In this document: positions 19,046 through 63,995 of the stretch, in pieces
Numbering within the stretch: position 1 is the stretch's first letter
Layout: the number at the start of each line of letters is the position of its first letter
Origin: an uncultured Bacteroidota bacterium
GTDB taxonomy: Bacteria; Bacteroidota; Bacteroidia; Bacteroidales; F082
DNA length: 64,000 bases
Reading direction: 5' to 3'
NCBI GenBank assembly: GCA_913055825.1
Contig: CAJXKB010000007.1
Location: forward strand, 1-64,000
Translations under genes and position numbers: made by a program
Notes under the pieces: model-generated
What the model was told of the DNA's origin: nothing
Database searches by the model: none
The model's input: only the letters and a program-made list of their open reading frames with translations

Positions 19046-20419
19046 ATGAAAAGAAGATGGTTGTTATACATTTTAGCCGGAATTGTATTGGCAGGTTGTA
19101 GCAATACAGGCACAGGTGAACTTGTAGGAACGCGGAAAAATGAAAAACCGTTTTACCAGCCCGATCCGTATGGGATGGTTTTTGTACCACAGGGAAGTTA
19201 TACCATGGGAGCAGGAGATCAGGATATTACAAATGGCCATCTTATTCAGCCGAAGACGGTTTCCGTATCTGCTTTTTTTATGGATCAAACCGAAATTACA
19301 AACGACGAATACCGGCAATTTGTTTACTGGGTACGCGATTCCATTGCACGACAAATTTTAGGGGATGTGCGTCCTGATGATTACCTCATTGAAGAAAATT
19401 CAAAAACAGGTGAGACTTATGATCCCCCACATCTTAACTGGAAAACAAAAATCAATTGGAACAGTGAGGATCAGGATGTACGTGATGCTCTTCAGGAATT
19501 GTACCTGCCTGAAAACGAACGCTATTTTCGTCATAAACAAATTGATGCCCGAAAACTGATGTATTCATACTACTGGGTCGATTTGCAGGGTACTGCCCGA
19601 AAGGATATGAGTAAAAAAGGAGATCCTAAGATGGCCTCTTTTGCAAACAGACCTTTGGGAACACGCAACCGTTCGGTGTTTGTGCATAACGCAACCATCA
19701 ATGTATATCCGGATACGCTATGCTGGATTACCGATTATACCTATTCGTTTAACGATCCCATGACAGAAAAATATTTTTCCCACCCGGCTTACGACCATTA
19801 TCCTGTGGTGGGGGTCAACTGGCAGCAGGCCAGGGCTTTTTGTGTTTGGAGGACTGAGTTTTTAAACAGTCATCTGCGTGCAAAAAAAGGAGGGGTCGAA
19901 CTTTCCGAATTTCGTTTGCCCACCGAGGCCGAGTGGGAGTGGGCTGCCCGTGGAGGAAACCAGCTGAGTCCTTATCCCTGGGGCGGACCTTATACACGGA
20001 ACGATAAAGGTTGTTTCCTTGCAAATTTTAAACCCTTACGGGGAAATTATATTGCCGATGGTGGCCTGCGTACCGTGGTTGTGGGCCATTATCCACCCAA
20101 CGATTTTGATTTGTATGATATGGCCGGTAATGTGGCCGAGTGGACAAACAGCGCCTACGACCCCTCTTCGTATAATATCTCGTGGGACATGAACCCCAAT
20201 TATACGTATAATGCCAAACCCGATGATCCACCTGTAATGAAAAGAAAGGTAATCCGTGGTGGTTCATGGAAAGATGTTGCCTATTATTTGCGCGTTACAA
20301 CCCGGGCGTATGAATATCAGGACACGGCTAAATCATATATCGGTTTTCGTTGTGTTCAACCTTATCTGGGTCGGAATAAAGGAGATAACCCCAGCAAGGA
20401 ATCTCACGTCTATCATTAA
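19046..20419 (+). CDS. gldK: T9SS ring lipoprotein GldK/PorK
   Basis: 457 residues with a lipoprotein signal (lipobox LAGC, Cys at residue 18). The remainder is a formylglycine-generating-enzyme-like (FGE-sulfatase) domain: GMVFVPQGSYTMGA near residue 43, TEITNDEYRQFV near 83, the RLPTEAEWEWAARGG motif near 296, and C-terminal KVIRGGSWKD and GFRCV. GldK/PorK forms the periplasmic ring of the type IX secretion system with GldN and is not an active FGE enzyme. It is the first of the tight gldKLMN group. Confidence 0.96.
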   Translation: MKRRWLLYILAGIVLAGCSNTGTGELVGTRKNEKPFYQPDPYGMVFVPQGSYTMGAGDQDITNGHLIQPKTVSVSAFFMDQTEITNDEYRQFVYWVRDSIARQILGDVRPDDYLIEENSKTGETYDPPHLNWKTKINWNSEDQDVRDALQELYLPENERYFRHKQIDARKLMYSYYWVDLQGTARKDMSKKGDPKMASFANRPLGTRNRSVFVHNATINVYPDTLCWITDYTYSFNDPMTEKYFSHPAYDHYPVVGVNWQQARAFCVWRTEFLNSHLRAKKGGVELSEFRLPTEAEWEWAARGGNQLSPYPWGGPYTRNDKGCFLANFKPLRGNYIADGGLRTVVVGHYPPNDFDLYDMAGNVAEWTNSAYDPSSYNISWDMNPNYTYNAKPDDPPVMKRKVIRGGSWKDVAYYLRVTTRAYEYQDTAKSYIGFRCVQPYLGRNKGDNPSKESHVYH

Positions 20420-20461
20420 AAAAAATAATTAAGAACGATTAATTTATATAAGCGAATCATT

Positions 20462-21472
20462 ATGGGATTTTTTGATTTTAATAAAACAAGAGTATACAGA
20501 AACCTGATGGCCAAGGTTTACGGTATAGGGGCATCGGTGGTTTTAATAGGGGCTCTGTTAAAAATAAACCATTATGGAGGGGCCGATTTTGCCCTCGCTT
20601 TGGGGCTTGGAACCGAAGCTTTAATCTTTTTTCTTTCGGCCTTTGAAGTGCCTCATGTTGAACCCGACTGGAGTATGGTCTATCCAGAATTAGCCGGTAT
20701 GTACCATCCCGTAAAAGGAAGTGACGCCCAAACATTGAGAGGCCGGCAAACAGCAACCCAAAAGCTGGATCAAATGTTTGAGAAAGCACAAATTGACCAG
20801 TCAATGATTGACAAGCTTGGGGAAGGATTGAGTAAATTTTCTGAAAACGCAGTAAAAATGGCTGACGTTACCGATGCAGCTGTGGCATCCAAAAATTTTG
20901 CCGACGAGCTAAATTCGGCAGCGCAATCTACTCATAAGCTCGGTGAAGTTATGGAAAACGACCTTAAAGCAGCTGGTAGCTATTCGGAAAACATGAATGT
21001 CATCAACCAAAAAGTTGAGGTGCTTTCTAATGCCTATTCACAGGCAGCCGATATCCTCAAAGGAAATATGGATACTACCGAAGAATTTGCAGGGACAGTA
21101 CACGAGGCTACCCAATCGGCAAAAAACCTGGCAGCGGGTTATCAAAAATCAGCCGAAATACTGTCAAAATCGGTAGAAGCACTCGATTTTACTGCTGTTG
21201 AAGGTGATGCTTACAATACACAACTTAGAAAAATTGCTGAAAATCTCGCTGCACTGAATGCAATTTATGAAATTCAATTGCAGAGTAGCAATGATGCAGT
21301 GGAAAACTCGGGAAAAATGCGGGAAACCATGTCGCAACTGTTACAAAGCCTTGAGAAATCAACCGCTAATTCCGGTCAGTTTGCATTACAACTGGAAACT
21401 TTGTCACAACGGATGGAATCGCTCAATAAAGTATATGGTAATATGTTGACTGCCATGAATATTCAGGCCTGA
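20462..21472 (+). CDS. gldL: T9SS inner-membrane motor protein GldL
   Basis: 336 residues. Two N-terminal membrane helices (about 15-35 and 42-60) are separated by the KINHYGGADF segment and followed by FFLSAFEVPHVEPDW. The rest is a long soluble, coiled-coil-rich region. GldL with GldM forms the proton-motive-force-driven rotary motor of T9SS, a 5:2 complex in known structures. It lies 42 bases after gldK and 37 before gldM. Confidence 0.96.
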   Translation: MGFFDFNKTRVYRNLMAKVYGIGASVVLIGALLKINHYGGADFALALGLGTEALIFFLSAFEVPHVEPDWSMVYPELAGMYHPVKGSDAQTLRGRQTATQKLDQMFEKAQIDQSMIDKLGEGLSKFSENAVKMADVTDAAVASKNFADELNSAAQSTHKLGEVMENDLKAAGSYSENMNVINQKVEVLSNAYSQAADILKGNMDTTEEFAGTVHEATQSAKNLAAGYQKSAEILSKSVEALDFTAVEGDAYNTQLRKIAENLAALNAIYEIQLQSSNDAVENSGKMRETMSQLLQSLEKSTANSGQFALQLETLSQRMESLNKVYGNMLTAMNIQA

Positions 21473-21509
21473 TAAAAACATGAGCCGTGTAAACATAAAA
21501 CTAATTTAA

Positions 21510-23195
21510 ATGGCTGGATATAAAGAGACACCGAGACAGAAAATGATCGCCATGATGTACCTCGTGCTTTATGCATTGTTGGCACTTAACGTGTCGAAAC
21601 AGGTGCTGGACGCTTTTTTGGTGGTGAACGAAAGTGTGGAAAGCACAAACGAAAGCCTGAGTGAGAAGATTGCTTCTACTTATAACCGCTTCGAGCAACA
21701 ATATCAGTTGAATCCCGATAAGGTGGGTCCGTATTGGGAGAAATCCAAAGTGGTGAAGACTAAATCAGACGAAATGCTACAATATCTTAACCACTTGAAA
21801 TTAAAGCTGATTGAGGTGTCTGAAAAGAAAGACTCTGCCTTTGTGGTGAAAAATTATTATTTTGACTCCCTCGTTACCGATGTGTATCATCCAACTAAAA
21901 TGATTAAAAAGAAGTTTTTGAACCTGAATTCCGTACCTACCAAAGATCGCTATAACGATGTAACCAATTACCTGATTGGCGTCGGGAACAGCAAAAAAGG
22001 GGAAGCTTATCGCCTGAGTAAAAGAATGACAGATTTACGCACCACCATGTTGCATTTTATGAATTTACCTGATTCAAGCACTAAGGTGGGGTTGATTACC
22101 AACTTTTTAGGTGATAAAAAAATTATTTATCGCAATGCTGACCATCAAAAGCAGGATTGGGAAAATCACAACTTTTATTATACTATTTTGGCAGCTGATA
22201 TCACGTTGACAAACAAAATAATATCGGAAGTTAAAATGGCTGAATTTGATGCCATGAAGTATTTGTATAGCTCGGTTACCGAAAAAGATTATAAATTCGA
22301 TAATGTGGCAGCCAAAGTTATTCCAAAAAGTACTTATGTGCTTAAAGGTGGTAAATACGAAGCCGAAGTGCTGGTGGCTGCTTACGATACCAAGACGAAT
22401 CCCAATGTGAGGGTGTTGGCCGGTACGGATTCCATTACGGATAAAAACCTGAAAAATGCCCGCTTAATAAAAGGTAAAGGCGGATTGGTGAAATTGGTTT
22501 TTCCGGCTAATAAAGAGGGAAATCATAAATATGCCGGAATTATTGAAATGGTCGATCCGAAAACCAATCAAATTGCCCATTATAATTTTAATGCCAACTA
22601 CACGGTGGCTCCTCCATCGTTAACGGTGGCCCCTTTAAAAATGAATGTGTTTTACATCGGGGTCGAAAATCCGGTCTCAATCACATCGCCTGGCCTGGCC
22701 GAACAACAAATTAAGCCGCAGATCACGGCCGGAAAGTTATATCGTAAGGGCAAAAACTGGATGGTGAAAATTGATAACAGGGTGCCCGGAAACAAAGTGT
22801 ATGTGAGTGCTGTGGCTAAAATCGATGGCAAACAGGTTTTGTTGGGAAAATCGGAATTTCGCGTGAAGCGTGTTCCCGATCCCATTGCCGAAGTGGCCGG
22901 CCAAACCAATGGTAAAATTGATAAAAATATTTTGCTGGCTGCCGGCGCTATTATTCCCGACATGAAAGACTTTGAATTTGATTTGTATTTTACGGTTACG
23001 TCGTACACCTTTGCCACCATACTAAATGGTGACTGGATACCTAAAAGTATCAGGGGTAATCGCTTTACTCCCGAAATGATTAACATTATCCGGAAAGCCA
23101 AACACAAACAAAAGTTCTTTTTTGAAAATATTGTGGCCAAAGGCCCTGATGGAACGGTGAGAAGCCTGAACCCCATTAGTTTAGAGATTAAATAA
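21510..23195 (+). CDS. gldM: T9SS motor/shaft protein GldM
   Basis: 561 residues. The single N-terminal membrane helix (MIAMMYLVLYALLALNVSK, from about residue 12) is the most conserved part and packs inside the GldL pentamer. The long periplasmic part begins with a helical domain and continues as beta-rich domains, for example YTVAPPSLTVAPLKMNVFY and NPVSITSPGL. This periplasmic shaft transmits motor torque to the GldK/N ring. It ends 8 bases before gldN, suggesting translational coupling. Confidence 0.96.
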   Translation: MAGYKETPRQKMIAMMYLVLYALLALNVSKQVLDAFLVVNESVESTNESLSEKIASTYNRFEQQYQLNPDKVGPYWEKSKVVKTKSDEMLQYLNHLKLKLIEVSEKKDSAFVVKNYYFDSLVTDVYHPTKMIKKKFLNLNSVPTKDRYNDVTNYLIGVGNSKKGEAYRLSKRMTDLRTTMLHFMNLPDSSTKVGLITNFLGDKKIIYRNADHQKQDWENHNFYYTILAADITLTNKIISEVKMAEFDAMKYLYSSVTEKDYKFDNVAAKVIPKSTYVLKGGKYEAEVLVAAYDTKTNPNVRVLAGTDSITDKNLKNARLIKGKGGLVKLVFPANKEGNHKYAGIIEMVDPKTNQIAHYNFNANYTVAPPSLTVAPLKMNVFYIGVENPVSITSPGLAEQQIKPQITAGKLYRKGKNWMVKIDNRVPGNKVYVSAVAKIDGKQVLLGKSEFRVKRVPDPIAEVAGQTNGKIDKNILLAAGAIIPDMKDFEFDLYFTVTSYTFATILNGDWIPKSIRGNRFTPEMINIIRKAKHKQKFFFENIVAKGPDGTVRSLNPISLEIK

Positions 23196-23203
23196 TTAAA
23201 AAG

Positions 23204-24049
23204 ATGAAAAAACTGTTTCTTATTACCTGTTCAGTTATGCTGCTCCTTGGCCCTGCCATGCTGAAAGCGCAAATTACGGATGAATCTCCCTTGGATGGTT
23301 TGTATGCTGATCAGGGAATTGTCAACAAAACGCCATTGCCTCTGCCCGGTGTGCGAAAAGCAGACGTTATGTGGTCAAAACGCATTTGGCGCGAAATCGA
23401 TTTCCGTCAGAAAATGAACCAGGTCTTTTATTTTCCGATTAATCCCCACCAAAACTGGAAATCGTTTATAACGGTGATCCTCGACGCCCTGAAACAGGGA
23501 AAAATTACGGCTTACGATGTGTCAAATACCGATGAACTGCTGGTGCCGATTACTTATCAGGAAATCATCGGCCGCCAAACCGATACCATTCATAAAATTA
23601 TGCGACGGTCGTATCCGCCTTATGATGAATATGATACAACAATTATCACTGAATTTGATCCTTCCAAAGTGATGCGCCTGCGCCTGAAAGAAGACTGGTA
23701 TTTTGATAAACAACGCTCGCAAATGCTTGTCCGCATCGAAGCTTTCTGCCCCGTAATTATTAAAGAACACAACGGTCAGGAAGTTACCGAACCTTTGTTT
23801 TGGGTATCGTATCCACAGTCACGAAAAGTCCTTGCGCAGGCCCTGGCATTTAATCCGTCTAATTCGGCCATGCGTTTAAGTTTTGACGATATTTTTATCA
23901 AACGTTTGTTCAGTAGTTATATTTACAAAGAACAAAACATGTACGACCGGCGGATTTCGGCTTATGCCACCGGCGTGGATGCCATTATGGAATCAAACCG
24001 GATTAAACGGGAAATGTTCAACTTTGAACAATATCTCTGGCAATATTGA
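23204..24049 (+). CDS. gldN: T9SS ring protein GldN/PorN
   Basis: 281 residues with a signal peptide ending near LKAQ. Family features include RKADVMWSKRIWREIDFRQKMNQ (partly quoted as RIWREIDFRQKMNQ) near residue 65, FDPSKVMRLRLKEDWYFDK near 150, and the C-terminal SAYATGVDAIMESNRIK. It forms the periplasmic ring with GldK. It is the last gene of the porP-gldKLMN group, closed by a hairpin terminator. Confidence 0.95.
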   Translation: MKKLFLITCSVMLLLGPAMLKAQITDESPLDGLYADQGIVNKTPLPLPGVRKADVMWSKRIWREIDFRQKMNQVFYFPINPHQNWKSFITVILDALKQGKITAYDVSNTDELLVPITYQEIIGRQTDTIHKIMRRSYPPYDEYDTTIITEFDPSKVMRLRLKEDWYFDKQRSQMLVRIEAFCPVIIKEHNGQEVTEPLFWVSYPQSRKVLAQALAFNPSNSAMRLSFDDIFIKRLFSSYIYKEQNMYDRRISAYATGVDAIMESNRIKREMFNFEQYLWQY

Positions 24050-46310: not shown

Positions 46311-46312
46311 TT

Positions 46313-46570
46313 ATGACTTACATTATTTATATAGCGCTGACACTTATGGCTCTGGGGATGATCTTCTCGGCCATTCGGTTTGTGAAAGGGCCCACGGCCG
46401 CTGACCGTACGGTAGCCATGGACACGCTCACCACCATTGGTGTGGCCGCCCTGGTTTTGGTCGGATATATGTTTGAACGTTTTATTTATGTTGACGTAGC
46501 ACTGGTTTATGCTGTTCTCGGCTTTATCGGTGTTATTGTTATAGCAAGATATTTGGAGGGCGCCTTATGA
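46313..46570 (+). CDS. MnhF/MrpF-like subunit (MbxB-type)
   Basis: 85 residues, three membrane helices. RFVKGPTAADRTVAMDTL near residue 22 is the MrpF signature. It overlaps the next gene by 4 bases. Part of the cation-translocating membrane arm. Confidence 0.92.
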   Translation: MTYIIYIALTLMALGMIFSAIRFVKGPTAADRTVAMDTLTTIGVAALVLVGYMFERFIYVDVALVYAVLGFIGVIVIARYLEGAL

Positions 46571-47926: not shown

Positions 47927-48302
47927 TACATTATTTAGCTATTTAGACTATGCTGTTTACGGAACGGCTGTCATTGTGATGTTGATTGGCTTTTATGGTG
48001 CCATGGTGAAAAAATCATTATTGAAAATAGTGATAGGTCTTTCTGTTATTGATTCCGGACTGAACCTGTTGATTGTGGCCATAGGCTATTATAAAGGTGG
48101 TACAGCACCTATTTTTTCGCAGGGGTTTTTGGAAAATTTTAAATCAGTAAGTAAAATGACCGACCCTGTGCCCCAGGCACTCGTGCTCACCGCCATAGTC
48201 ATTGGTTTTGGTGTGACGGCTGTGGCATTGGCACTGGTTATCCGCTTATACAGACATCACGGTACTTTAAATATTGACGAAATAAAGAATTTGAAATGGT
48301 AG
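47919..48302 (+). CDS. MnhC/NuoK-like subunit
   Basis: 127 residues from ATG 47919 (an upstream GTG at 47910 is in frame). Three membrane helices, with SVIDSGLNLLIVAIGY near 44 and DPVPQALVLTAIVIGFGVTA near 84, the MrpC/NuoK signature. It overlaps the preceding gene by 8 bases and the next by 7. Confidence 0.93.
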   Translation: MDSTLFSYLDYAVYGTAVIVMLIGFYGAMVKKSLLKIVIGLSVIDSGLNLLIVAIGYYKGGTAPIFSQGFLENFKSVSKMTDPVPQALVLTAIVIGFGVTAVALALVIRLYRHHGTLNIDEIKNLKW

Positions 48303-49777: not shown

Positions 49778-49798
49778 TATCAAGATAAAAGATAAAAG

Positions 49799-51646: not shown

Positions 51647-51664
51647 ATAATAATAGATAGATCA

Positions 51665-52576: not shown

Positions 52577-52588
52577 ATAGACATTACT

Positions 52589-53134
52589 ATGATTAACGAT
52601 AAGAATTCACAGAAAATAGTAGACATCATCCAAAATTGGGCGCGCAAGCACTCCATTTGGGTATTGGGCTACGGAACCGGTTGTGGTGCTATTGAAATTC
52701 CCCCTACCATGACTTCACGTTACGACGCCGAGCGCCTTGGTGTGCGTGGTGCTGCCACGCCTCGTCAGGCCGACGTGCTACTGATTACCGGATATCTGAC
52801 TACCAAAACACTCAAACGCGTAATTCGTGTTTACGAACAGATGCAAGACCCCAAGTATGTGATTGGCTTTGGCTCATGTACCATCAATGGTGGCATGTAT
52901 TACGATTCGTATAATACCATTAAGGTGTTGGATAAATACCTGCCTGTTGATGTTTATATCAACGGTTGCATGCCCCGTCCCGAAGCCGTTCTTTCCGGTT
53001 TTGGGCAACTGCAAAAACGAATTGCCGAAGGGCGTGCCGATGGAGCCAAACAGTATAAGGAAAACCTGGAGTGGTATCGGGCCAACCAAAAGAAAATTAT
53101 CCCCAATTGGGTCATGCCTGAATATAACTGGTAA
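52589..53134 (+). CDS. NuoB-like [4Fe-4S] subunit (MbxJ-type) with an incomplete cysteine set
   Basis: 181 residues. The nickel-iron small-subunit-like fold is clear from GTGCGAIEIPP near residue 32, GFGSCTINGG (Cys 97) and INGCMPRPE (Cys 127). NuoB has a CC pair and hydrogenase small subunits a CxxC pair in the first motif; here there is one cysteine (Cys 32), so only three of the four N2-type cluster ligands are present and no other Cys exists in the protein. The cluster might be 3-Cys with another ligand. The basic N-terminal segment and C-terminal ANQKKIIPNW extension are also unusual. Confidence 0.9.
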   Translation: MINDKNSQKIVDIIQNWARKHSIWVLGYGTGCGAIEIPPTMTSRYDAERLGVRGAATPRQADVLLITGYLTTKTLKRVIRVYEQMQDPKYVIGFGSCTINGGMYYDSYNTIKVLDKYLPVDVYINGCMPRPEAVLSGFGQLQKRIAEGRADGAKQYKENLEWYRANQKKIIPNWVMPEYNW

Positions 53135-53143
53135 AAACGATTG

Positions 53144-53716
53144 ATGATGAAAGAACTAAAAGAACATATAATCAGACGTGTTAAAGCTAATTTTACCGAA
53201 GCAGAAGAAAACAACGACTTTACTTACGATCGTCTTGATTTTACAGTAAAGAAAGAGGTTGTCCCTTCTCTCTTGCTTTTTCTAAAAGAAGAAATGGGCT
53301 TTAAACACCTTTCACACGCCAGTTGTGTTGACTGGCTTGAAGAAGGCGAATTGGAACTGGTTTTTATCCTTTGGTCTCCCAAAGATAAAATCAAAGTTTT
53401 TGTACGGACCCGTCTAGACCGTGATAATCCGGTAATGGACAATATGGATAATATCTGGCCACAACTTCACACTTACGAAAGAGAATTTCGTGAAATGTTT
53501 GGCGTTCAGTTTACCGGATTGGAAGCCCCAGATGAATTTATCCTTGAAGATTGGCAGGGTCCGCCACCTTTCCGCCGTGATTTTGATACGGCTGCGTATG
53601 CAGAAAAAACCTTCTGGCATCGTCCCGGCAGAGAAGATGCACAGGATGTGCGTGAAACGATTGCTAATCGTGATGGCGAAGATATCCCTGATTTTGCAAA
53701 AAAATACTCGAGATAA
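53144..53716 (+). CDS. NuoC-like subunit (MbxK-type)
   Basis: About 190 residues from ATG 53144 (a TTG just before and an ATG just after are also in frame). The 30-kDa-subunit motif HTYEREFREMFGVQFTG lies near residue 108. It is a soluble scaffold protein of the peripheral arm, next to the NuoD-like subunit, and only 1 base separates its stop from the next ATG. Confidence 0.92.
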   Translation: MMKELKEHIIRRVKANFTEAEENNDFTYDRLDFTVKKEVVPSLLLFLKEEMGFKHLSHASCVDWLEEGELELVFILWSPKDKIKVFVRTRLDRDNPVMDNMDNIWPQLHTYEREFREMFGVQFTGLEAPDEFILEDWQGPPPFRRDFDTAAYAEKTFWHRPGREDAQDVRETIANRDGEDIPDFAKKYSR

Positions 53717-53717
53717 A

Positions 53718-54821
53718 ATGAGAGAAAAGGCAACAACACTATATTTAGGACCTCAGCACCCGGGGATTACCGGAAACATGATGGTCCGTCTGAAAGTTGA
53801 AGGAGATACTATTGTTAAAGCTACCACTGAAGTGGGATATCTTCATCGTGCTTTTGAGAAATTACAGGAACGTAGAAACTGGTTACAAGCTTTCACTCTT
53901 CTTTGCCGTTTTTGTGTGCCTGAACCTGATCCGGTTGAAGAATCATATGCACGCGCTGTTGAATTGCTCGAGGGTCGCGAAGTTCCCGAAAGAGCAAAAT
54001 ATATCCGTGTCCTGATGCTTGAGTTAGCCCGGATGGGTGCTTATATGTTGTGGTATGGCGGGCAAAACGGTTCTCTCGGCCTCTATACTATGGGTCAGTG
54101 GTCCGTTGGGGACAGAAACTATATCCTCGACCTTTTTGAAGAGCTTACCGGTGGTCGTGTTTATCATATGTACATTTGGCCGGGCGGTGTTCGTCGCGAT
54201 CTTCCCGAAGGCTTTGCTGATAAGGTATTGCGTACTATGGACTATTTTGAAAAAAGGTTGAAAGATTATGACGACCTTATGTTCGACAATACGATTTTTC
54301 AGAAAAGGACACAGGGCATTGGTATAGTCCCGAAAGAAAAAGCTGTGGAATGGGGCGTTGTCGGACCTATTCTTCGTGGATGTGGTATTAAAAGCGATAT
54401 CCGTATTGACGATCCTTATGAAGTGTATGATAAACTTGATTTTGTAGTCCCTACGCATGAAGGCGGCGATATTTGGTCGCGTGCTTTAGTACGTCGCGAG
54501 GAAGTACGTCAGTCTATAAGAATTATCCGTCAGGTAATAGAAAAGATGCCTTCCGGTGAAATTTATAATAAAATTCCTAACCCTCATAAATGGGCGTTAC
54601 CCAAAGGCGATGCTTATGCCCGTACCGAAGCTGTCCGTGGTGAAGTGGGAATGTACATTGTAAGTGATGGTAGTACACACCCCAGACGAACTCATTTTAG
54701 AGGCGCTGCTTATGTACATGCCATCACCTTGCTCGAAAAGGTTTTGGTAGGAGCCAATGTGGCCGATGTGTCTGCAATTATGAACAGTTTGGGGACTTGT
54801 CCTCCGGAAATTGAACGTTAA
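53718..54821 (+). CDS. NuoD/hydrogenase-large-subunit-like protein (MbxL-type) with partial Ni-Fe ligands
   Basis: 367 residues from ATG 53718. It opens LGPQHPGITGNMMVRLKVEGD, the classical start of the family. [NiFe] hydrogenases bind the metal through an N-terminal CxxC and a C-terminal DPCxxC. Here the N-terminal motif is LLCRFC (Cys 63, Cys 66), while the C-terminus reads SLGTCPPEIER, keeping one cysteine (361) and having Glu where the last should be. NuoD has none. So three of four ligands remain. No C-terminal maturation peptide is seen, and no hyp genes are in the window. I therefore do not call it a hydrogenase. Confidence 0.92.
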   Translation: MREKATTLYLGPQHPGITGNMMVRLKVEGDTIVKATTEVGYLHRAFEKLQERRNWLQAFTLLCRFCVPEPDPVEESYARAVELLEGREVPERAKYIRVLMLELARMGAYMLWYGGQNGSLGLYTMGQWSVGDRNYILDLFEELTGGRVYHMYIWPGGVRRDLPEGFADKVLRTMDYFEKRLKDYDDLMFDNTIFQKRTQGIGIVPKEKAVEWGVVGPILRGCGIKSDIRIDDPYEVYDKLDFVVPTHEGGDIWSRALVRREEVRQSIRIIRQVIEKMPSGEIYNKIPNPHKWALPKGDAYARTEAVRGEVGMYIVSDGSTHPRRTHFRGAAYVHAITLLEKVLVGANVADVSAIMNSLGTCPPEIER

Positions 54822-54849
54822 TCTTGAACCAGATAAAACAAAAAAAGAT

Positions 54850-56640
54850 ATGAGTTTTTTTGATCTGAAAGGTACTTTAAAACCCCTCACTGCCTTAAAA
54901 CAGTTTGGGAAAAAACCACATACTATTTCCTATCCCAAAGTATCGAAAGAAGCAGCGGATCGTTACCGCGGATTTCATTATAATGATTTGGAAGAGTGTA
55001 TCGGATGCGGTAACTGCTCTACCATTTGCCAGAATGCTGCTATCGATATGATCCATCTCGAGGGAATTGAAGGTAAAAAAGGCGATTCGGGGCTGCGCCC
55101 ACGAATTGACCATGGCCGTTGTTGCTGGTGTGCGCTTTGTGTTGAAGTTTGTCCTACAGGAAGTTTGAGCCTGACCAAAGACTACAATTATGTGAGTGAA
55201 GATCCCGATTCGTTCCTCTGGACACCAGGGAAAGACAATCCGCAAGGAAAAGAAAAGATTTCATTCTTCAGTACAGAAGAAACCTCACTCAATGTCTTTC
55301 AGCGCGTTCCTATGCCCGAATTAGAAGGAAAAGAGCGTGTAAAGAGTTTTGCTGAGGTGGTATTGGGCTATAGCGAAACCGAAGCCCGTGCCGAGGCCAG
55401 CCGCTGTATCAGCTGCGGACTCTGTACAGAAGTTTGCCCCGATCACATGCATATTCCTGAGTATATCAATGCGATTGCTTCGGGTAATGATGCGGATGCT
55501 GTTCGTATTATTTACGATAATAACCCATTACCTGAAATGTGTGGTAAGGTTTGTACACACCGGTGCGAGGATGTTTGTGCCATTGCTTCGCGTGGTGAAG
55601 CCATCGCCATTCAGTGGCTGAAACGGTATGCTACCGAAACGGCTGCTACTGCTGATATTACCCACGAAATTGTAAATCCTGAAATCAGGGAAGCAAATGG
55701 CAAAACAGTGGGAATTGTCGGTGCTGGGCCTTCAGGCCTTACCGCAGCTTATTATCTGGCTTTGCGTGGTTACGATGTTACCATTTACGAAGCCAATGCC
55801 AAAGCAGGCGGCGCTACCATGTATGGGATTCCTAAATATCGTTTCCCAATCGACAGCCTGGATAAACAGATTGATTATATCCAAAGTATTGGTGTGAAAA
55901 TTAATTTCAACACCAAAGTGGGGAAAGATATCAGTTTCAAAGAAATTTATGATAATAATGATGCTGTATTTATGGGCGTAGGTTTCCCCGATGCCTGGTC
56001 ACTTGGTGTGGATGGTGAAAATGCAGAAGGCTCCATTCAGGCATTCCGTTATCTCTACATGATAAATTCTGGCGAAAAAGTAGATATCGGTGATAAAGTA
56101 ATCGTTGTGGGTGGTGGTAATGTTGCTATTGATGCAGCTCGCGTAAGCCGTCGTATGGGCGCTGAGGTAACCATTCTTTATCGTCGCCGGGTGGCAGATA
56201 TGCCTGCTGCTCAGGATGAAATTGATGGTGCTGAGGAGGAAGGCGTAACGATTGTTCCACAAGCCATTCCGATTAAGGTGATTGAAGACGAAAAAGGACA
56301 TGTAAAAGCAGTTGAATATCTGAAAGCTGAAATGGTTCCCGATGAACGTGGTGGCCGTCCGCGTCCGGTAGCTATCGAAGGGAGTAACACCATTATTGAA
56401 GCTACTTCAGTGATGGCTGCCATTGGCCAAAAGGGCGATTACAGCTTCCTCGAAAAAGAATTTGAAGATAAAATTAAAATCGAAAGAGGACGTTTTATCG
56501 TCAATGAAAAACAACAAACCGGTGACCCGAAAGTGTTTGCCGGTGGCGATGCTGTGAACCGTACTGCCGATGCTATTTCGGCCATTGCCGACGGTTTCCG
56601 TGCCTGTAAAGCCATTGACGAAATGCTAATGACAAAATAA
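54850..56640 (+). CDS. NuoI-like ferredoxin domain fused to GltD/NfnB-like NAD(P)H oxidoreductase
   Basis: 596 residues from ATG 54850. Residues 1-110: NuoI-like, with two [4Fe-4S] motifs, CIGCGNCSTIC (50-60) and CWCALCVEVCP (C91, C94, C97, C101). Then a GltD-type N-terminal iron-sulfur region, CISCGLCTEVCP near 194 and CGKVCTHRCEDVC near 236. Next an FAD-binding GIVGAGPSGLTAAYYLA near 300, an NADPH-type GGGNVAIDAARVSRRMGA near 424, and the closing FAGGDAVN. This subunit should connect NAD(P)H chemistry to the ferredoxin/complex I-like arm. It ends the operon; the group II intron remnant begins about 20 bases after the stop. Confidence 0.93.
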   Translation: MSFFDLKGTLKPLTALKQFGKKPHTISYPKVSKEAADRYRGFHYNDLEECIGCGNCSTICQNAAIDMIHLEGIEGKKGDSGLRPRIDHGRCCWCALCVEVCPTGSLSLTKDYNYVSEDPDSFLWTPGKDNPQGKEKISFFSTEETSLNVFQRVPMPELEGKERVKSFAEVVLGYSETEARAEASRCISCGLCTEVCPDHMHIPEYINAIASGNDADAVRIIYDNNPLPEMCGKVCTHRCEDVCAIASRGEAIAIQWLKRYATETAATADITHEIVNPEIREANGKTVGIVGAGPSGLTAAYYLALRGYDVTIYEANAKAGGATMYGIPKYRFPIDSLDKQIDYIQSIGVKINFNTKVGKDISFKEIYDNNDAVFMGVGFPDAWSLGVDGENAEGSIQAFRYLYMINSGEKVDIGDKVIVVGGGNVAIDAARVSRRMGAEVTILYRRRVADMPAAQDEIDGAEEEGVTIVPQAIPIKVIEDEKGHVKAVEYLKAEMVPDERGGRPRPVAIEGSNTIIEATSVMAAIGQKGDYSFLEKEFEDKIKIERGRFIVNEKQQTGDPKVFAGGDAVNRTADAISAIADGFRACKAIDEMLMTK

Positions 56641-57107: not shown

Positions 57108-58070
57108 ATGAAAAATAATACCGTTATCAGTATTCTGATGTTGATGGGCTTATTCATTGCAATTCATTCGGCTGTTGGTCAGGACACCCTCAAAGATAAT
57201 AAGTTTAAAAACGCTGTCGAAAATCATAAGTGTTTTAAATGTCACGGGCAGAAGTATTACTCCTATTATAATGAGTGGACCGAAAAGAAAGTTATCAAGA
57301 GAATGAATCCTTTTTATGTCATTGATTCGGTTAAGTTCTACACACAAAATCACTGCAGTTTTAAATGTATCGATTGCCATGATGCCGATTATGAAACATT
57401 TCCACATGATGGAATGCTGCAAATGGAAGGAATGTCCACTTGCCTTGATTGCCATGAAGATGATGAAAAAACGGCGAAGTATCATATGGAGGGAATCTAC
57501 AAAGAATATAAAGCCAGCGTTCATTTCAAAAAATACGGTACTGTTTTCAGTTGCTGGATGTGCCATGACCCTCATAAGTATAAAGTTACTGCCAGGGAAA
57601 ATGAAGATATTAGCAATGTGATTATTTATGATAATGAAATGTGTTTAAGTTGTCATTCGAATGGGACTAATAACACGATACTTTCCGATTCTGCATCTAA
57701 AAATATGGTGGCTGCCCATGATTGGCTTCCAAACCAAAAGCTTCATTTTCAAAATGTAAGATGTCTTGATTGCCATGTGAAGATTCAAAATGATTCAATG
57801 GTTAATCACGATATTTTACCTAAAAAAGATGCTGTTAAAAGATGTGTGGATTGCCATTCGAAAAACACGATTTTAAGCGCTACATTGTATAAATTTCAGT
57901 CAAAGGAGAGCAGGAGTAAACTTGGTTTCCTAAATGCTACTATTTTAAACAATTCATATGTGGTTGGCGCCAACAGGAATCACATCCTGAATAAAGCGAG
58001 CCTGATCATATTCGGATTGGTAATTATCCTGCTTATTATTCATGGAATTCTGCGTATAATAATAAAATGA
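57108..58070 (+). CDS. Seven-haem c-type cytochrome with C-terminal membrane anchor
   Basis: 320 residues from ATG 57108. The signal peptide ends near SAVGQD. Seven CxxCH haem motifs are seen: CFKCH, CIDCH, CLDCH, CWMCH, CLSCH, CLDCH and CVDCH, from about residue 42 to 252. A hydrophobic helix at about 297-318 near the C-terminus should anchor the protein in the inner membrane. The domain faces the periplasm. One base separates it from a cytochrome b gene, so the pair probably passes electrons from the quinol pool to periplasmic carriers. The haem spacing did not match NrfA, NapB or octahaem families that I know, so the acceptor is open. Confidence 0.92.
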   Translation: MKNNTVISILMLMGLFIAIHSAVGQDTLKDNKFKNAVENHKCFKCHGQKYYSYYNEWTEKKVIKRMNPFYVIDSVKFYTQNHCSFKCIDCHDADYETFPHDGMLQMEGMSTCLDCHEDDEKTAKYHMEGIYKEYKASVHFKKYGTVFSCWMCHDPHKYKVTARENEDISNVIIYDNEMCLSCHSNGTNNTILSDSASKNMVAAHDWLPNQKLHFQNVRCLDCHVKIQNDSMVNHDILPKKDAVKRCVDCHSKNTILSATLYKFQSKESRSKLGFLNATILNNSYVVGANRNHILNKASLIIFGLVIILLIIHGILRIIIK

Positions 58071-58071
58071 T

Positions 58072-58680
58072 ATGAAAGAAAAAATCTATTTATATCCCAT
58101 TTGGGTAAGAATATGGCATTGGCTGAACGCTTTGCTATTCCTATTGTTAGTCTTGACGGGACTCAGTATGCAATATGCAGCAAAGGATTCTTTATTGTTT
58201 CCATTTAATGTTTCGGTTACAGTACATAACACTTGCGGAATAATCCTCGTTTTTAATTTTTTGTTTTTTGCTTTTGCAAACCGTTTTACATGGAACGGAA
58301 AATACTATAATATCCGGTGGAAAAGATACGGAAAAGAATTGTGGCGTCAAATACGATTTTATTCCTACGGCATCTTCAAAAAGGAACCCCATCCTTTTCC
58401 GGTAACCAAAAAGAGGAAATTCAACCCGTTGCAACAACTCAGTTATGTAATTGCCATGTACATTCTCATCCCGTTAATCATTATCAGCGGCATCGGACTG
58501 TTATTTCCCGAAATAACGCTAAACGTTTTATTTGGTAAGAGCGGTATTTGGTTAACAGATTTGTTTCATCAGTTTTTAGGCTTTTCACTAACTATATTTT
58601 GGCTGATTCATTTGTATTTCTGTACGATTGGAAAAACTGCAACAAGTAATTTTAAAAGTATGATTGATGGTTGGCATTAA
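58072..58680 (+). CDS. Cytochrome b561-type membrane protein
   Basis: 202 residues, four membrane helices. Haem-ligand histidines are placed in IWHWLNALLF (near 18), VTVHNTCGI (near 52), DLFHQFLGF (near 164) and WLIHLYFC (near 180), the pattern of Ni/Fe-hydrogenase/formate dehydrogenase-type cytochrome b subunits. It probably oxidises or reduces quinol and hands electrons to the adjoining seven-haem cytochrome. Its start lies 1 base after the preceding stop. Confidence 0.9.
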   Translation: MKEKIYLYPIWVRIWHWLNALLFLLLVLTGLSMQYAAKDSLLFPFNVSVTVHNTCGIILVFNFLFFAFANRFTWNGKYYNIRWKRYGKELWRQIRFYSYGIFKKEPHPFPVTKKRKFNPLQQLSYVIAMYILIPLIIISGIGLLFPEITLNVLFGKSGIWLTDLFHQFLGFSLTIFWLIHLYFCTIGKTATSNFKSMIDGWH

Positions 58681-58718: not shown

Positions 58719-59432
58719 TTATCCTTTTTTGCTTAAATCTAACAAAACTTCTTTTTTTAGAATTTTGAAATGGTTGCCATTACAATCAATAATACCGTCA
58801 TCCTTAAAATCTTTTAATGTCCTGATAGCGCTTCCGTTGGTCATACACGACATATTTGCAATATCAGACCGACTGAGTTCCGTTGTGAATTCCCGGCTTT
58901 GATAAATATCCTCTGAAAGGTAAATAAGTGTGTCAGCCAACCTGCCATTCATATGTTTTTGTGTCAAAGATTTTAACTTGTCGTATAAATTAATAATCTC
59001 ACGATTTAAATCGGTAACCAGCTTCATAACATATGATTGGTTTGATAAGGTAAGCTGCTTAAAAAGGTTAATGTCAACAAAACAGGTTTTTGTGTCACCC
59101 AGGGCTTCTACCGAAAAATAATGACGGTAATCGGTATAAAGCCCGGGGCCGCATATAATGGCAGGCTTGCTTAGAATTTTTAGCAGAACAGTCTGACCGA
59201 AGCTTTCTAATAATACTTTCGCTTTACCTTCGGATAAATAAATGACATGAGTTAGGGGGCTGCCCTGCTTAATAATTGTTTCACCTGCCTTAAAGCTTAC
59301 CTGAAATCGGTTTGAATTTATCGACTTTAGCTGTTCGCTGTTTAGCAAATTAAAAAACGAAGGTATCACCTCACATCCGCTTCCCTTGTCTTGTATTTCC
59401 TTCTCATTTAATTGTATCGACTTCATATTCAT
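58719..59432 (-). CDS. Crp/Fnr-family transcriptional regulator
   Basis: 237 residues. An N-terminal cyclic-nucleotide-binding-like beta-barrel (about 30-140: FKAGETIIKQGSPLTHVIYLSEGKAKV, partly quoted as GETIIKQGSPLTHVIYL) is followed by a long helix and a C-terminal winged helix-turn-helix (about 168-235: ELSRSDIANMSCMTNGSAIRTL). It lacks the N-terminal cysteine cluster of FNR, so the signal is not obviously oxygen through an iron-sulfur cluster; haem or a nucleotide are possible. It is convergent with the cytochrome b gene and divergent from the lipoprotein gene, so it is a good candidate regulator of these cytochrome genes. Confidence 0.92.
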   Translation of the reverse strand: MNMKSIQLNEKEIQDKGSGCEVIPSFFNLLNSEQLKSINSNRFQVSFKAGETIIKQGSPLTHVIYLSEGKAKVLLESFGQTVLLKILSKPAIICGPGLYTDYRHYFSVEALGDTKTCFVDINLFKQLTLSNQSYVMKLVTDLNREIINLYDKLKSLTQKHMNGRLADTLIYLSEDIYQSREFTTELSRSDIANMSCMTNGSAIRTLKDFKDDGIIDCNGNHFKILKKEVLLDLSKKG

Positions 59433-59698: not shown

Positions 59699-60094
59699 AT
59701 GAAGACAAAAAGTAAAATTCTGGTATTCACATTTTTACTGGCGATGGGATTGATAAGCTCATGCCAGTATGATAATATCATTGAACCGGTTACACCTCCG
59801 CCAAATCCTACGGATACTGTTAGTTTTGTAAATCAGATTGAGCCTATTTTTAATAATAATTCAAATTGTACGGCTTGTCACTTTACTGGAGGAGGGCATT
59901 CCGATTTAACTACAGGCAATGCTTATAATAGTATAAAAAGCATGGGGTTAGTCAATCTTTCCGATCCGGAAGCAAGTATCATTTATTGGTACCCGAATTT
60001 AGATAACAGTTCGGATCATACATGGAAAAAATATACTGCTGAAGAAGCTCAACTGGTTTTACAGTGGATAAAACAGGGAGCATTAAACAATTAA
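59699..60094 (+). CDS. Mono-haem c-type lipoprotein
   Basis: 131 residues. The lipobox is ISSC (Cys 22). One haem motif, CTACH, lies near residue 58. The rest resembles small Planctomycete/Bacteroidota cytochrome-c-like domains, ending LVLQWIKQGALNN. It probably sits in the outer or inner membrane as an electron carrier. The start region is an 11-base tandem duplication: a first ATG at 59688 opens only four codons (MKTK) and its stop overlaps the true start as ATGA. Confidence 0.9.
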   Translation: MKTKSKILVFTFLLAMGLISSCQYDNIIEPVTPPPNPTDTVSFVNQIEPIFNNNSNCTACHFTGGGHSDLTTGNAYNSIKSMGLVNLSDPEASIIYWYPNLDNSSDHTWKKYTAEEAQLVLQWIKQGALNN

Positions 60095-60105: not shown

Positions 60106-60996
60106 ATGAATGCAAAAAAAATAATATTAAATTTTATTTTATCACTTTTAATTGCCGGTACCGGATTTGCCCAAGACACACTAAAAGTGAAAAAAGTTGA
60201 TAAGCCTGTTCGATTTCCGTGGGACAGTGAACTACTGATTGACAACCAAACGACGTTATCTCCACCCGCAAAAACATTGGAATTTATTATCCAACACCGC
60301 TTTGGATTGGTTAATCAAAAAGGTATCCATGACCTTTTTGGCCTTTACGCACCCGGGGCTAACATTCGCCTGGGATTGAATTATACTGTAGCTAAACACC
60401 TGACATTGGGTTATGGCATTACAAAAAAGAATATGTATAGCGATTTTCAAGTAAAATGGACTATTATTGAGCAAACCCGATCAAACCGGATTCCTGTGGC
60501 CGTTGCTGTTTTTGGTGATTTTGCTGTTGATGGAAGGAGTAACGAGGCTTTGGGAACCCAGTATAAATTTTCAAATCGATATTCCTATTTTAGTCAGGTA
60601 ATTGTGAGCCGGAAATTTTGCGATCATTTTTCTATAGCTGCCACGGCAAGTTTTACCCATTTTAACACGGTTGCAGTTGGAAGGAACCATGATGTTATTG
60701 GTGTGGGGGTGAATGGACAGATTAAATTCTCTCCACAATCCTCCATCCTATTTCAGTACGATATTCCTTTAAAGATACAAGGTATTTCCGAGCAAAGTGA
60801 ATTTACTTCCCTTAACTCTGCAAAACCGAATTTTGGATTTGGTTATCAGGTAGAAACAGCAGCCCATTCCTTTCAAATTTACTTTACTACAGCAGATGGT
60901 ATTTTGCCACAGGACATTTATCTGAATAACCGGAACGACTGGACAAAAGGTGATTTTATGATTGGGTTTACCATCACTAGATTGTGGAATTTTTAA
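60106..60996 (+). CDS. DUF5777-like outer-membrane beta-barrel protein
   Basis: 296 residues from ATG 60106 (the frame is open from 60064, but ATG 60106 follows directly with a good signal peptide ending AGTGFAQ). Beta-strand-rich with regular aromatic residues and a C-terminal Phe (TRLWNF), as for outer-membrane barrels. I recognise the DUF5777 type from segments like EFIIQHRFGLVN near 62 and FGLYAPGANIRLGLNYT near 80; these occur beside c-type cytochromes in Bacteroidota. Its stop-to-start gap with the preceding lipoprotein is 11 bases. Confidence 0.8.
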   Translation: MNAKKIILNFILSLLIAGTGFAQDTLKVKKVDKPVRFPWDSELLIDNQTTLSPPAKTLEFIIQHRFGLVNQKGIHDLFGLYAPGANIRLGLNYTVAKHLTLGYGITKKNMYSDFQVKWTIIEQTRSNRIPVAVAVFGDFAVDGRSNEALGTQYKFSNRYSYFSQVIVSRKFCDHFSIAATASFTHFNTVAVGRNHDVIGVGVNGQIKFSPQSSILFQYDIPLKIQGISEQSEFTSLNSAKPNFGFGYQVETAAHSFQIYFTTADGILPQDIYLNNRNDWTKGDFMIGFTITRLWNF

Positions 60997-61032: not shown

Positions 61033-61464
61033 ATGAAAAAAATAAGCGTAACTAACTTAATCGGACTTTTTGTATTGTTGTTTTTCGTAGGGACATTAAC
61101 GGCCTTTATGTCTCCCCAGAACCAAAAGAAAGGCGCCAAATGGGTGATTCCTGAAAAATATCATAAAATGAAAAATCCTTATGTGGGGAATAAAAAAGAC
61201 GTAATGATAGGAAAAATGCTGTATAATAAATATTGCAAATCCTGTCATGGATCAAAAGGGCTTGGCGATGGTCCCAAGGCAGCGAAACTTAAGACTTTCC
61301 CGGGTGATTTCAGTACGGCTAAATTCCAGGCTTATACCGATGGCGACTTGTACTATATGACAGCTGTTGGAAGAGAAGGCGAGATGAAAGGGTACAGTAA
61401 AAAAATTCCGGACGAAGAAAGTATATGGGGAATAGTTAGTTATATGCGAAAGTTGAAAAAATAA
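61033..61464 (+). CDS. Class I c-type cytochrome with N-terminal anchor
   Basis: 143 residues. A hydrophobic N-terminal segment (about 5-28) acts as signal or anchor. The haem motif CKSCHG lies near 75. Met in GEMKGYSKKIPDEE (near 118) is the likely sixth haem ligand, and the C-terminal WGIVSYMRKLK is the usual class I ending. It is probably the diffusible or tethered periplasmic carrier of the cluster, following the barrel gene by 36 bases. Confidence 0.93.
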   Translation: MKKISVTNLIGLFVLLFFVGTLTAFMSPQNQKKGAKWVIPEKYHKMKNPYVGNKKDVMIGKMLYNKYCKSCHGSKGLGDGPKAAKLKTFPGDFSTAKFQAYTDGDLYYMTAVGREGEMKGYSKKIPDEESIWGIVSYMRKLKK

Positions 61465-61488
61465 ATACGATAAAATCATTCAATCCCT

Positions 61489-61770
61489 GTGAAGCTGGCA
61501 AAGTATGGTTCAGAATTGGATGGCCCCTGGATCCCCGGGTATATCGACTTAACAACACTACACACTACTTATCAAAAGGTTATCTCTTTAACCACTGGCG
61601 ATATATCCACCTACATTCAGACATTGCGTACTGTCTTGGCAACAAAAATGTGCAACTCCTGTCATAATCCGGCAGATGAAGGTGCAGACCAGGCTATCAC
61701 AATTAACGGTATCAACTGCGGACCACAAGGGGGTGACAGCCGTGCTTACGTTGGGGATCAACCATCCTGA
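61489..61770 (+). pseudogene. Fragment of a c-type cytochrome gene
   Basis: An open stretch of 93 codons from GTG 61489 with no signal peptide and one haem motif, KMCNSCHNPADEG near residue 55, ending abruptly in SRAYVGDQPS. Downstream frames are broken. It looks like part of a larger multihaem protein that has decayed; the original start and the rest of the haem sites are absent. I cannot name the family. Confidence 0.5.
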
Positions 61771-61959
61771 GTACGGCTGTATTGATTGAAATGACTCACA
61801 TACCTTCCTGCCTGTTGACCATAAAACCAAAGCATTGTCTAACCTGCTTACCATCGGTTTGTATGTTAAACATTTTCTATTTTATCTTCTGTGGTATGCT
61901 ATCTGTTCACCAATCAGCAAAAGGGATATCCAAAACACCTTGATTGTGTTTCGTGACAA

Positions 61960-62133
61960 CAGTCATCTTTGCGTAAGGGAAGTGAGGATTATGTGTATGA
62001 TTTGCCACGGGTGGAGTTCATAACAGGATTTACCGGCAATAAAGTTTTGAAAGGCTACAATGAAAACCATTCAGCTCAAGTTGATAAAGGTAGCTACACA
62101 GGTGAAATTTTTAAAAACAAAAGTGGTAATTGA
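61960..62133 (+). pseudogene. Second decayed coding fragment
   Basis: A 57-codon open segment without a start codon (QSSLRKGSEDYVYDLPRVEF ... AQVDKGSYTGEIFKNKSGN) lies between stops. Its composition looks like protein-coding sequence of an exported protein. It may belong with the haem fragment at 61489 or be an unrelated relic. No family recognised. Confidence 0.35.
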
Positions 62134-62485
62134 CCTATCAACGGGTTTTTACAGTAAATGCAATTTCAAGAAGGCACCGGGAATGGTTGAAAATTTACGC
62201 CTATAAACCATAAAACGATAACCAGTTGTTCTTAAACCTGTTGACAGATTTTCATATCCTACCAGATTTTCAATGACAAAAACTGATGAGAGAAGATAAG
62301 GCTGCGTGTTTACGTATTACACAGATTAATTGCATGTAAGTATTTTTTTAGGCGTGGACACCACATAAATAAACCTCACCTAACCTAATTTTGACTGAAT
62401 AAATTTGTTTGTGAATTATTCAGGTTTTTATTCATTTATTTTTTTAGAAGAAAAACTTCTATCACTAAAATCGATTGATAGACAT
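62134..62485. other. Non-coding AT-rich stretch
   Basis: No credible frame. It probably continues the decayed segment on its left and then becomes plain intergenic sequence leading to the strong hairpin. Confidence 0.4.
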
Positions 62486-62516
62486 AATAGGGTTTTACCA
62501 CATGTAAAACCCTATT
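62486..62516 (-). terminator. 13-bp perfect hairpin 3' of the split-Soret-like gene
   Basis: AATAGGGTTTTAC (62486-62498) is an exact reverse complement of GTAAAACCCTATT (62504-62516) around a CACAT loop. It lies 62 bases past the stop of the minus-strand cytochrome gene. A long T-run is lacking on the minus side, so termination is likely but not certain; it may also serve plus-strand transcripts. Confidence 0.7.
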
Positions 62517-62577
62517 AAATACATTTTTATTTCCATCTATTAGTAAATAATGCCATACTTAATGAATAGTAAAAAAT

Positions 62578-63690
62578 TTATTTTGACATAACAATTCTTA
62601 TTGTTTTCATATAATTACCTGTTGTTAATCTTGCCAGATAAATTCCATTTGGAACTTGATTTCCGGAATTATCAAGACCCTTCCAGGTAACCTTGTATGT
62701 GCCAGCATTCATCAAATCGGAATCGATGAGTGAGTAAATCAGCTGCCCCTTAATATTATAGATCTCAAATCGTACCTTTTCAGATTTAGGTATTGAAAAT
62801 TTAATAGTTGTTTCATTATGAAACGGATTTGGATAAGCTTTTGAAAGATTATAATCCTTAGCAACTATAGAAGGCGTAGCAGTAATATGATGTGCTGTTG
62901 TATGGCATGATACACATTCCATATGAGTCATTACATTGTCTAGTACAGATGGGCCATGACAAGACATACAAGTAGTATTTTGATCTGAATCAGCATAAGT
63001 AGCAGTAAAATTATCTGCAAAATATTCATTAAGAATACTAACTGTTTTAGCAGCAATATCACCAGCTAACCTTCCACATCGTTCTAATCTTTCCGGGCTT
63101 GATACTTTTTTATTCGCTGCTGCGCACCACTGACTTACTGATGGATGGCATAGAGGACTACCAGAAACACTCTGTGCCATTTCTCCATCATAATGAACAT
63201 CAGAATAAACAGCACTATTTGCCGCATCAGTAGGTAATGCCTCCGTTGTGTACCAACCCCATAGTTCAGTAATGAGGGCAGTAGATGGTGTACTTTCTAC
63301 TACGAGGCTAATCAAAGCCCCTGCACCGTTTAACGTTCCACACAGTGATCCCCATCCTACTCCGCCACCTTTGCCAAATAACATTATTTCAGTAGGAAAT
63401 CCTGTCCATGGGTCTCCAATTTCCCTCTGTAATAATTGTACAATGCCAGTAAGTACACCGGCAGCACAAAACTTACCATCGTAGTAGGCCGTATGCGCTG
63501 CATCGCGTGCTTCTTCGGGATCTAAGGCTACGTATGGGTAGGGCCAAGATGATGATTTACTGTTCTTTTCATCAGCATAAGCTTTGTTGTTTAATAACAA
63601 ATTTAAACCTGCAGCACCCGCTGCAGCCCCAATTACAATTTTTGAAGAATCTTTAAAAAATTCTTTTCTTGAAATTATTTTTTTTTCCAT
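62578..63690 (-). CDS. Split-Soret-like (C_GCAxxG_C_C) dihaem cytochrome with T9SS sorting domain
   Basis: 370 residues. Tat-like signal SRKEFFKDSSKIVIGAAAGA (one Arg of the pair replaced by Lys), cleaved near AYA. The redox-active C_GCAxxG_C_C-type domain shows YYDGKFCAAGVL near 68-79, GWGSLCGTLNGAGALI near 111, PLCHPSVSQWC near 177, and RCGRLAGDIA near 203. Two haem motifs follow, CMSCHG and CVSCHT, near 240 and 256. Residues about 282-370 form a type A T9SS C-terminal domain (AYPNPFHNETTIKFSIP, then VPNGIYLARLTTGNYMKTIR). So the protein should cross the inner membrane, receive haem, then be secreted through the GldKLMN machine. Known split-Soret cytochromes lack such a tail. Confidence 0.9.
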   Translation of the reverse strand: MEKKIISRKEFFKDSSKIVIGAAAGAAGLNLLLNNKAYADEKNSKSSSWPYPYVALDPEEARDAAHTAYYDGKFCAAGVLTGIVQLLQREIGDPWTGFPTEIMLFGKGGGVGWGSLCGTLNGAGALISLVVESTPSTALITELWGWYTTEALPTDAANSAVYSDVHYDGEMAQSVSGSPLCHPSVSQWCAAANKKVSSPERLERCGRLAGDIAAKTVSILNEYFADNFTATYADSDQNTTCMSCHGPSVLDNVMTHMECVSCHTTAHHITATPSIVAKDYNLSKAYPNPFHNETTIKFSIPKSEKVRFEIYNIKGQLIYSLIDSDLMNAGTYKVTWKGLDNSGNQVPNGIYLARLTTGNYMKTIRIVMSK

Positions 63691-63796
63691 AGTATTTAGA
63701 TTTTATTAGTTGTCAATTTTCACATGGTTGTTTATGACAACTTGGTTTATAATCACAAGACAAATATAATATTTATATGTTAATCCATTCACAATA

Positions 63797-63836
63797 GATT
63801 ATAATATAAATCATAATTGATTATAATATAAATCAT
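63797..63836. repeat. Two 18-bp direct repeats with partial dyad symmetry
   Basis: GATTATAATATAAATCAT occurs at 63797-63814 and again at 63819-63836, a period of 22 bases (about two helical turns). Each copy has a GATT ... AATC dyad. They lie about 105-145 bases upstream of the split-Soret-like gene start, in a good place for tandem operator sites. Confidence 0.7.
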
Positions 63837-63945: not shown

Positions 63946-63995
63946 GAAAGAATGATACAAAAAAATTGGAAACCAATCCTTAGTATCATTCTTTC
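63946..63995. repeat. 13-bp inverted repeat with inner hairpin
   Basis: GAAAGAATGATAC (63946-63958) is an exact reverse complement of GTATCATTCTTTC (63983-63995); inside lies a second small dyad, ATTGG-AAA-CCAAT. It may be a terminator for a minus-strand gene lying to the right of the window, or an element end; the edge prevents a decision. Confidence 0.65.

Follow-up and report, generated by a model that had tools for sequence, protein, structure and literature searches.

The window, a stretch of 64,000 nucleotides from an uncultured Bacteroidota bacterium, carries near its end a complete gene for a split-Soret cytochrome c, and encodes elsewhere the core of a T9SS. The features on which the first part of our analysis rests are as follows.

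62578..63690, reverse strand: split-Soret cytochrome c with a T9SS tail, complete gene (ATG start, 370 aa)
63568..63690, reverse strand: N-terminal export signal, residues 1-41 (Tat-like R-K-x-F, low-hydropathy core, AYA-D cleavage site, predicted boundary)
62896..63549, reverse strand: split-Soret / C_GCAxxG_C_C core, residues 48-265 (Pfam, NCBIfam, 1h21 sequence and fold)
62956..62970, reverse strand: haem c motif 1, CMSCH, residues 241-245 (CxxCH)
62902..62916, reverse strand: haem c motif 2, CVSCH, residues 259-263 (CxxCH)
62581..62853, reverse strand: T9SS type A C-terminal sorting domain, residues 280-370 (TIGR04183, PF18962; tail folds of PorU, PorZ, RgpB and RemZ)
62485..62517, no strand: perfect 14-bp inverted repeat downstream of the split-Soret gene, probable transcription terminator
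19046..24049, forward strand: gldK, gldL, gldM and gldN, the T9SS ring and motor (TIGR03525, TIGR03513, TIGR03517 and TIGR03523)

Two tandem 22-bp A+T-rich repeats (63789-63832) lie upstream of the split-Soret gene and could form an operator, and close to the end of the contig lies a possible terminator, a 16-bp inverted repeat (94%; 63946-63995).

The Desulfovibrio split-Soret protein is a dimer with bis-His haems and a novel iron-sulfur centre, and we know of no established function for split-Soret cytochromes. The window protein matched PF09719 (C_GCAxxG_C_C) in a Pfam search (E = 8e-9, 36 bits against a cut-off of 27), which together with the two CxxCH motifs at residues 241-245 and 259-263 bears out the C_GCAxxG_C_C dihaem protein proposed in the earlier note. 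It also matched the NCBIfam model for split-Soret cytochrome c, NF047622 (E = 4e-49, 168 bits), while falling short of that model's 400-bit cut-off, a Desulfovibrio equivalog threshold that no sampled Bacteroidota member reached; we therefore place it in a distinct subfamily rather than with the Desulfovibrio equivalog. The same note had called the protein "split-Soret-like", which proved an understatement, as it is truly homologous to the Desulfovibrio desulfuricans ATCC 27774 protein whose structure has been solved (PDB 1h21), which it matched by sequence with E = 1.4e-30 and 34% identity over the core. The core of an AlphaFold2 model aligned with 1h21_A over 191 residues at 3.2 A (Z = 26.9), in a model with a mean pLDDT of 72 that is weak at the N-terminus and the haem motifs and contains no haems. 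The two proteins have the core fold in common, and their CxxCH pairs occupy equivalent positions; the conserved extra cysteines are likewise the same in both, as is the LCH-motif His. Cys75, Cys117, Cys181, Cys205, His182 and both CxxCH motifs were invariant in 82 of 82 homologues, and His267 was present in 74 of the 82; we infer that the four cysteines are likely ligands of a non-haem iron centre, and that His182 and His267 would be the distal haem ligands. A "novel iron centre" is named in the titles of PDB 1h21 and of a reference cited in PMC5701242. Unlike 1h21, the window protein runs on for about 100 residues into a T9SS type A tail, predicted to sort it to the surface, whereas the split-Soret cytochromes described so far are periplasmic.

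The assignment of the tail as a type A T9SS domain, also made in the earlier note, was upheld by two sequence models, TIGR04183 (41.2 bits against a cut-off of 23), which matched residues 286-367 of 370 and thus the extreme C-terminus, and PF18962 (Por_Secre_tail; E = 1.4e-8, 35.3 bits against a cut-off of 27), and its fold agreed. The predicted tail is a seven-strand Ig-like domain that aligned with the PorU tail (Z = 10.7) and the mirolase CTD (Z = 8.5), middling Z values being common in themselves, and it aligned also with the PorZ and FlgD Ig domains; Foldseek matches included the T9SS tails of RgpB, the RemZ complex and the NucA complex. Both the sequence family of the tail and its fold are thus shared with described type A cargo (RgpB, RemZ and the PorU/PorZ tails), and the difference lies in the cargo domain, here a c-type cytochrome, described T9SS cargo being enzymes, adhesins and virulence factors (PMC9127263, PMC5445135). 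The gldKLMN core that had been noticed in the window was confirmed, with all four genes above the model cut-offs, and the genome also encodes SprA (E = 0), TatC, a CcsA-type assembly protein (Cytochrom_C_asm) and 43 T9SS-tail matches, that of the window protein included. Given the tail model, the tail fold, GldKLMN and SprA, and the presence of the tail in T9SS-type phyla and its absence elsewhere (see below), there is good support for the predicted placement of the window protein at or beyond the outer membrane, in line with what the note had claimed.

The architecture recurs in other Bacteroidota, where the earlier note had proposed to look for it. A split-Soret protein was found in 26 of 395 genomes of the phylum, our own included, and all 26 of these phylum-sampled homologues carried two CxxCH motifs and a type A tail (TIGR04183), a conservation that argues against chance. 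Among 80 named loci the tail was present in 66, from Bacteroidota, Ignavibacteriota, Chlorobiota, Kryptonium, KSB1, Caldithrix and two unassigned bacteria; the 14 tail-less loci all belonged to Bacillota, Chloroflexi, Spirochaetes, Acidobacteria or archaea, none of these phyla being known for T9SS, and their proteins stop 3-21 residues past the second haem. The 26 phylum genomes and 66 tailed named loci rule out an architecture unique to this genome. Nor is the tail universal in Bacteroidota, since among 295 genomes of the window's own order we found tailed proteins in six other genomes and a distinct tail-less type in three (L146, L147 and L154), both readable N-termini of which were twin-arginine. 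The nearest relatives of the window protein showed 57-60% identity over the full length, and across deeply diverged members the tail keeps its YPNPF start, its glycines and a C-terminal Lys. In a quick tree with several weak forks, the window protein fell within a well-supported set of 41 tailed proteins common to Bacteroidota and Ignavibacteriota, and two tail-less Acidobacteriota were nested among tailed members; this tree needs three tail changes and so does not establish that the tail arose only once: either one gain followed by losses or several gains would fit. We conclude that the tailed split-Soret architecture is a conserved and apparently undescribed family in Bacteroidota, Ignavibacteria and relatives; in the parts of the open-access literature that our searches reached, we found no prior report that joins split-Soret cytochromes with T9SS or with arsenic. 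A link to phages or plasmids was dropped, since a scan of viral contigs with the window protein gave no match and the matches in plasmid records were to the T9SS tail only. Two loci were irregular: the split-Soret gene of an Ignavibacterium MAG (L099, 4100-5270) has two in-frame stops near its N-terminal part and is decayed or mis-assembled, and a Bacillota MAG (L116) has two split-Soret genes in tandem.

The description of the N-terminus as a Tat-like signal held in part. Its low hydropathy and its R-x-x-F pattern, with F11 invariant in the 26 phylum homologues, fit Tat; its motif, S-R-K-E-F-F, lacks the twin arginine of Tat substrates, as do the signals of nearly all tailed members (RK in 54 of about 68, RR in 2, KR in 1, and mostly RQ, RN, RH or RS in the rest), whereas RR was found in 10 of the 13 readable signals of tail-less members. 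The hydropathy of the signal core was 1.79 in the window protein, with means of 1.77 for tailed and 1.82 for tail-less members, against 2.25 for 12 other T9SS proteins of the same genome, which have the short, strongly hydrophobic Sec signal that the window protein does not. A core as mild as that of the tail-less members, and milder than that of the genome's own T9SS cargo, favours a Tat or Tat-derived route, while the loss of the twin arginine and the habit of T9SS, whose substrates enter the periplasm via Sec according to reviews (PMC9127263, PMC5445135), favour a drift to Sec. The signal therefore reads as ambiguous; a Tat-T9SS route would be new, since T9SS cargo has been described as Sec-dependent.

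Convergent with the split-Soret gene, and not in the same operon, lies a cluster of cytochrome genes with a regulator.

61033..61464, forward strand: monohaem c-type cytochrome, candidate periplasmic carrier (Pfam; homologue in the L167 split-Soret operon, E = 4e-20)
60106..60996, forward strand: DUF5777 beta-barrel protein (PF19089, E = 5e-71; start moved by inspection from GTG 60064 to ATG 60106)
59699..60094, forward strand: monohaem cytochrome with a lipoprotein-type signal (LISSC)
58719..59432, reverse strand: Crp/Fnr-type regulator (its relatives adjoin the split-Soret gene, in divergent orientation, at L065, L074 and L130)
58072..58680, forward strand: cytochrome b561-type membrane subunit, thiosulfate-reductase cytochrome b-like (PF01292, E = 5e-29; homologue in L108; NF011582, E = 2e-58, 198 against a cut-off of 204)
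57108..58070, forward strand: seven-haem c-type cytochrome carrying a hydrophobic anchor at its C-terminus (by inspection, the start was shifted from GTG 57057)

This set recurs in part in two other genomes and is missing beside the gene in most relatives. At locus L108 the split-Soret gene is followed directly by homologues of the lipoprotein, the DUF5777 protein, the seven-haem cytochrome and the b561-type subunit together with a thioredoxin-like gene, and at L167 by two haem lipoproteins, a DUF5777 protein and a monohaem cytochrome c. The neighbourhood is thus evidence, from few genomes, for a shared electron route. A quinol-to-outside chain of the kind known from MtrCAB-type porin-cytochrome conduits would be matched here by candidates for each part (cytochrome b, multihaem c, small c carriers, barrel and surface cytochrome); in contrast to MtrCAB, no homologue of MtrA, MtrB or MtrC was identified, the barrel is a DUF5777 protein, and the surface protein is a dihaem cytochrome with a probable iron site. 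We dropped the ORF at 61489-61770 as a member of the set, having found no homologue of it. Between the monohaem cytochrome and the split-Soret gene, at 61465-62130, two short open stretches in the same frame are split by stops, the first with a CxxCH, and have the look of a decayed haem-protein gene. Upstream of the cytochromes, a run of Mrp-antiporter-like and complex-I-like genes at 44753-56640 (subunits E and B, NuoN/M-like, NuoH-like and NuoD-like) ends in an Fe-S/NAD(P) oxidoreductase (PRK13984-like) and appears to encode a membrane energy-converting complex.

The commonest context in relatives was of another kind, namely an arsenic-resistance island with genes for ArsR, ArsE-type and other thioredoxins, ArsF, CcdA/ArsG-like proteins, an ArsP-type permease, ACR3, ArsC and ArsM, so that the split-Soret gene shares the neighbourhood of ars operons with ArsEFG, ArsP or ACR3 in many genomes. 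A PAS-sigma54 activator and a TPR protein were encoded directly upstream of the split-Soret gene in about 30 loci. At least one of ArsP, ACR3, ArsC and ArsM was present in 32 of the 66 tailed loci, as against 1 of the 14 tail-less ones. ACR3 lay within 10 kb of the split-Soret gene in 9 of 35 genomes, where about 0.25 would be expected, and ArsP in 13 of 35, linkage to one or the other spanning 10 family groups in all; for random placement the binomial P values are about 1e-12 (ACR3) and 6e-20 (ArsP), both overstated because the genomes are related and not independent. The tail-less Bacteroidales members G535 and G545, a separate lineage, also lay inside ars operons, and one fragment (L067) carried both ars-type genes and the DUF5777/lipoprotein pair. 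In our own genome ACR3, ArsC and ArsR were found together on another contig, and the contig of the window breaks off at 549 bp upstream of the split-Soret gene, so that for this genome the arsenic link would stand by analogy; in Melioribacter roseus the split-Soret gene and ACR3 are 700 kb apart. We did not find a secreted cytochrome as a component of an ars system in the open-access literature searched. One tail-less split-Soret gene inside an ars operon (L170, 8175-9100) reads in two frames, with an apparent frameshift, and a tailed sub-clade (L112, L121, L122, L132 and L134) has another conserved neighbourhood (clusters c14, c16, c24 and c40), mostly without ars efflux genes adjoining the split-Soret gene.

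Sequence and comparison together show the core fold, the two c-haem motifs, the conserved site of four cysteines and the type A tail, and show also that the secretion machinery is present and that the architecture is conserved as a family; electron transfer is the likely general role of the protein. With somewhat more confidence than doubt, we regard the window protein as one that transfers electrons at the surface and may have a link to arsenic or redox stress. Haem attachment would take place in the periplasm through CcsA-type maturation, the protein would fold as the known dimer with stacked haems, and the tail would carry it through SprA; more speculatively, electrons might pass from the quinone pool by way of the b-type cytochrome, the seven-haem cytochrome, the small c cytochromes and the haem lipoprotein/beta-barrel pair to the split-Soret protein. 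The recurrent place in arsenic-resistance islands suggests that the role may be metalloid redox handling, or the handling of metalloid-caused stress, rather than bulk mineral respiration, although island-building can group genes without a shared function.

What such a surface protein would do can be read in two ways that stand about equally open, each of them possible but doubtful when taken alone. It could act in respiratory extracellular electron transfer to minerals, humics or an electrode, as the terminal cytochrome or as a relay, fed by the b561-type subunit and the seven-haem, monohaem, lipoprotein and DUF5777 proteins, for which the recurrence of this set at L108 and L167 and the DUF5777 and lipoprotein genes near the L067 gene speak, as does a tailed member in M. 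roseus, which respires Fe(III) and also uses arsenate and nitrite as acceptors (PMC3534657). A split-Soret cytochrome of Pyrodictium is encoded with cytochrome b and was present during growth on both ferrihydrite and nitrate, but it was not differentially abundant (PMC8105010). Against this reading, the protein is a dihaem and not a long multihaem wire, the role of DUF5777 as an electron conduit is putative, and most relatives have no cytochrome cluster nearby, many of them sitting among ars genes. The extracellular electron transfer put forward in the earlier note is supported in part: a candidate envelope route lies beside the gene, with parts recurring in two other genomes, while a specifically respiratory role is weakened by the arsenic-resistance context commonest in relatives and by the fact that no acceptor can be read from the sequence. 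The alternative, a surface arsenic or metalloid redox factor that takes part in the ars response by trading electrons with extracellular arsenic species or reduced thiols, draws on the surrounding ACR3, ArsC, ArsM, ArsP, ArsE, ArsF and ArsG/CcdA-type genes, on the linkage statistics and on the separate tail-less Bacteroidales lineage; yet those P values are inflated, the protein has no recognisable catalytic site for arsenic, tail-less members elsewhere are mostly away from ars genes, and the CcdA and thioredoxin neighbours could serve cytochrome maturation.

A third reading, in which the protein has the tail yet never gets beyond the periplasm or the inner side of the outer membrane and keeps the usual split-Soret role, seems very unlikely to us. 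PMC4215793 describes Dde_3211 and Dde_0653, split-Soret cytochromes of Desulfovibrio alaskensis, as periplasmic and gives no phenotype for two split-Soret mutants of this species, and the atypical signal leaves the first export step uncertain; but the YPNPF start, the glycines and the C-terminal Lys of the tail have been kept across deep divergence, and members from phyla that are not known for T9SS have no such tail. A bolder version of the arsenic-linked reading, in which a conserved class of proteins with haems and an iron site would cross the inner membrane by a Tat route accepting R-K signals, be loaded with haem in the periplasm and go on through T9SS to arsenic-linked redox chemistry at the surface, strikes us as unlikely; if true, it would give, to our knowledge, the first Tat-to-T9SS cargo and the first surface cytochrome of an ars system.

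As surface electron-transfer proteins, which is the reading we prefer, c-type cytochromes with a T9SS tail would give Bacteroidota and Ignavibacteria a way of bringing redox centres to the outside of the cell that does not depend on MtrCAB-like conduits. The linkage to ars genes offers a new and concrete lead on the role of split-Soret cytochromes, and the gene is carried by a cultured organism, M. roseus (G188:C1), whose tailed member is encoded behind a sigma54 activator and TPR genes.
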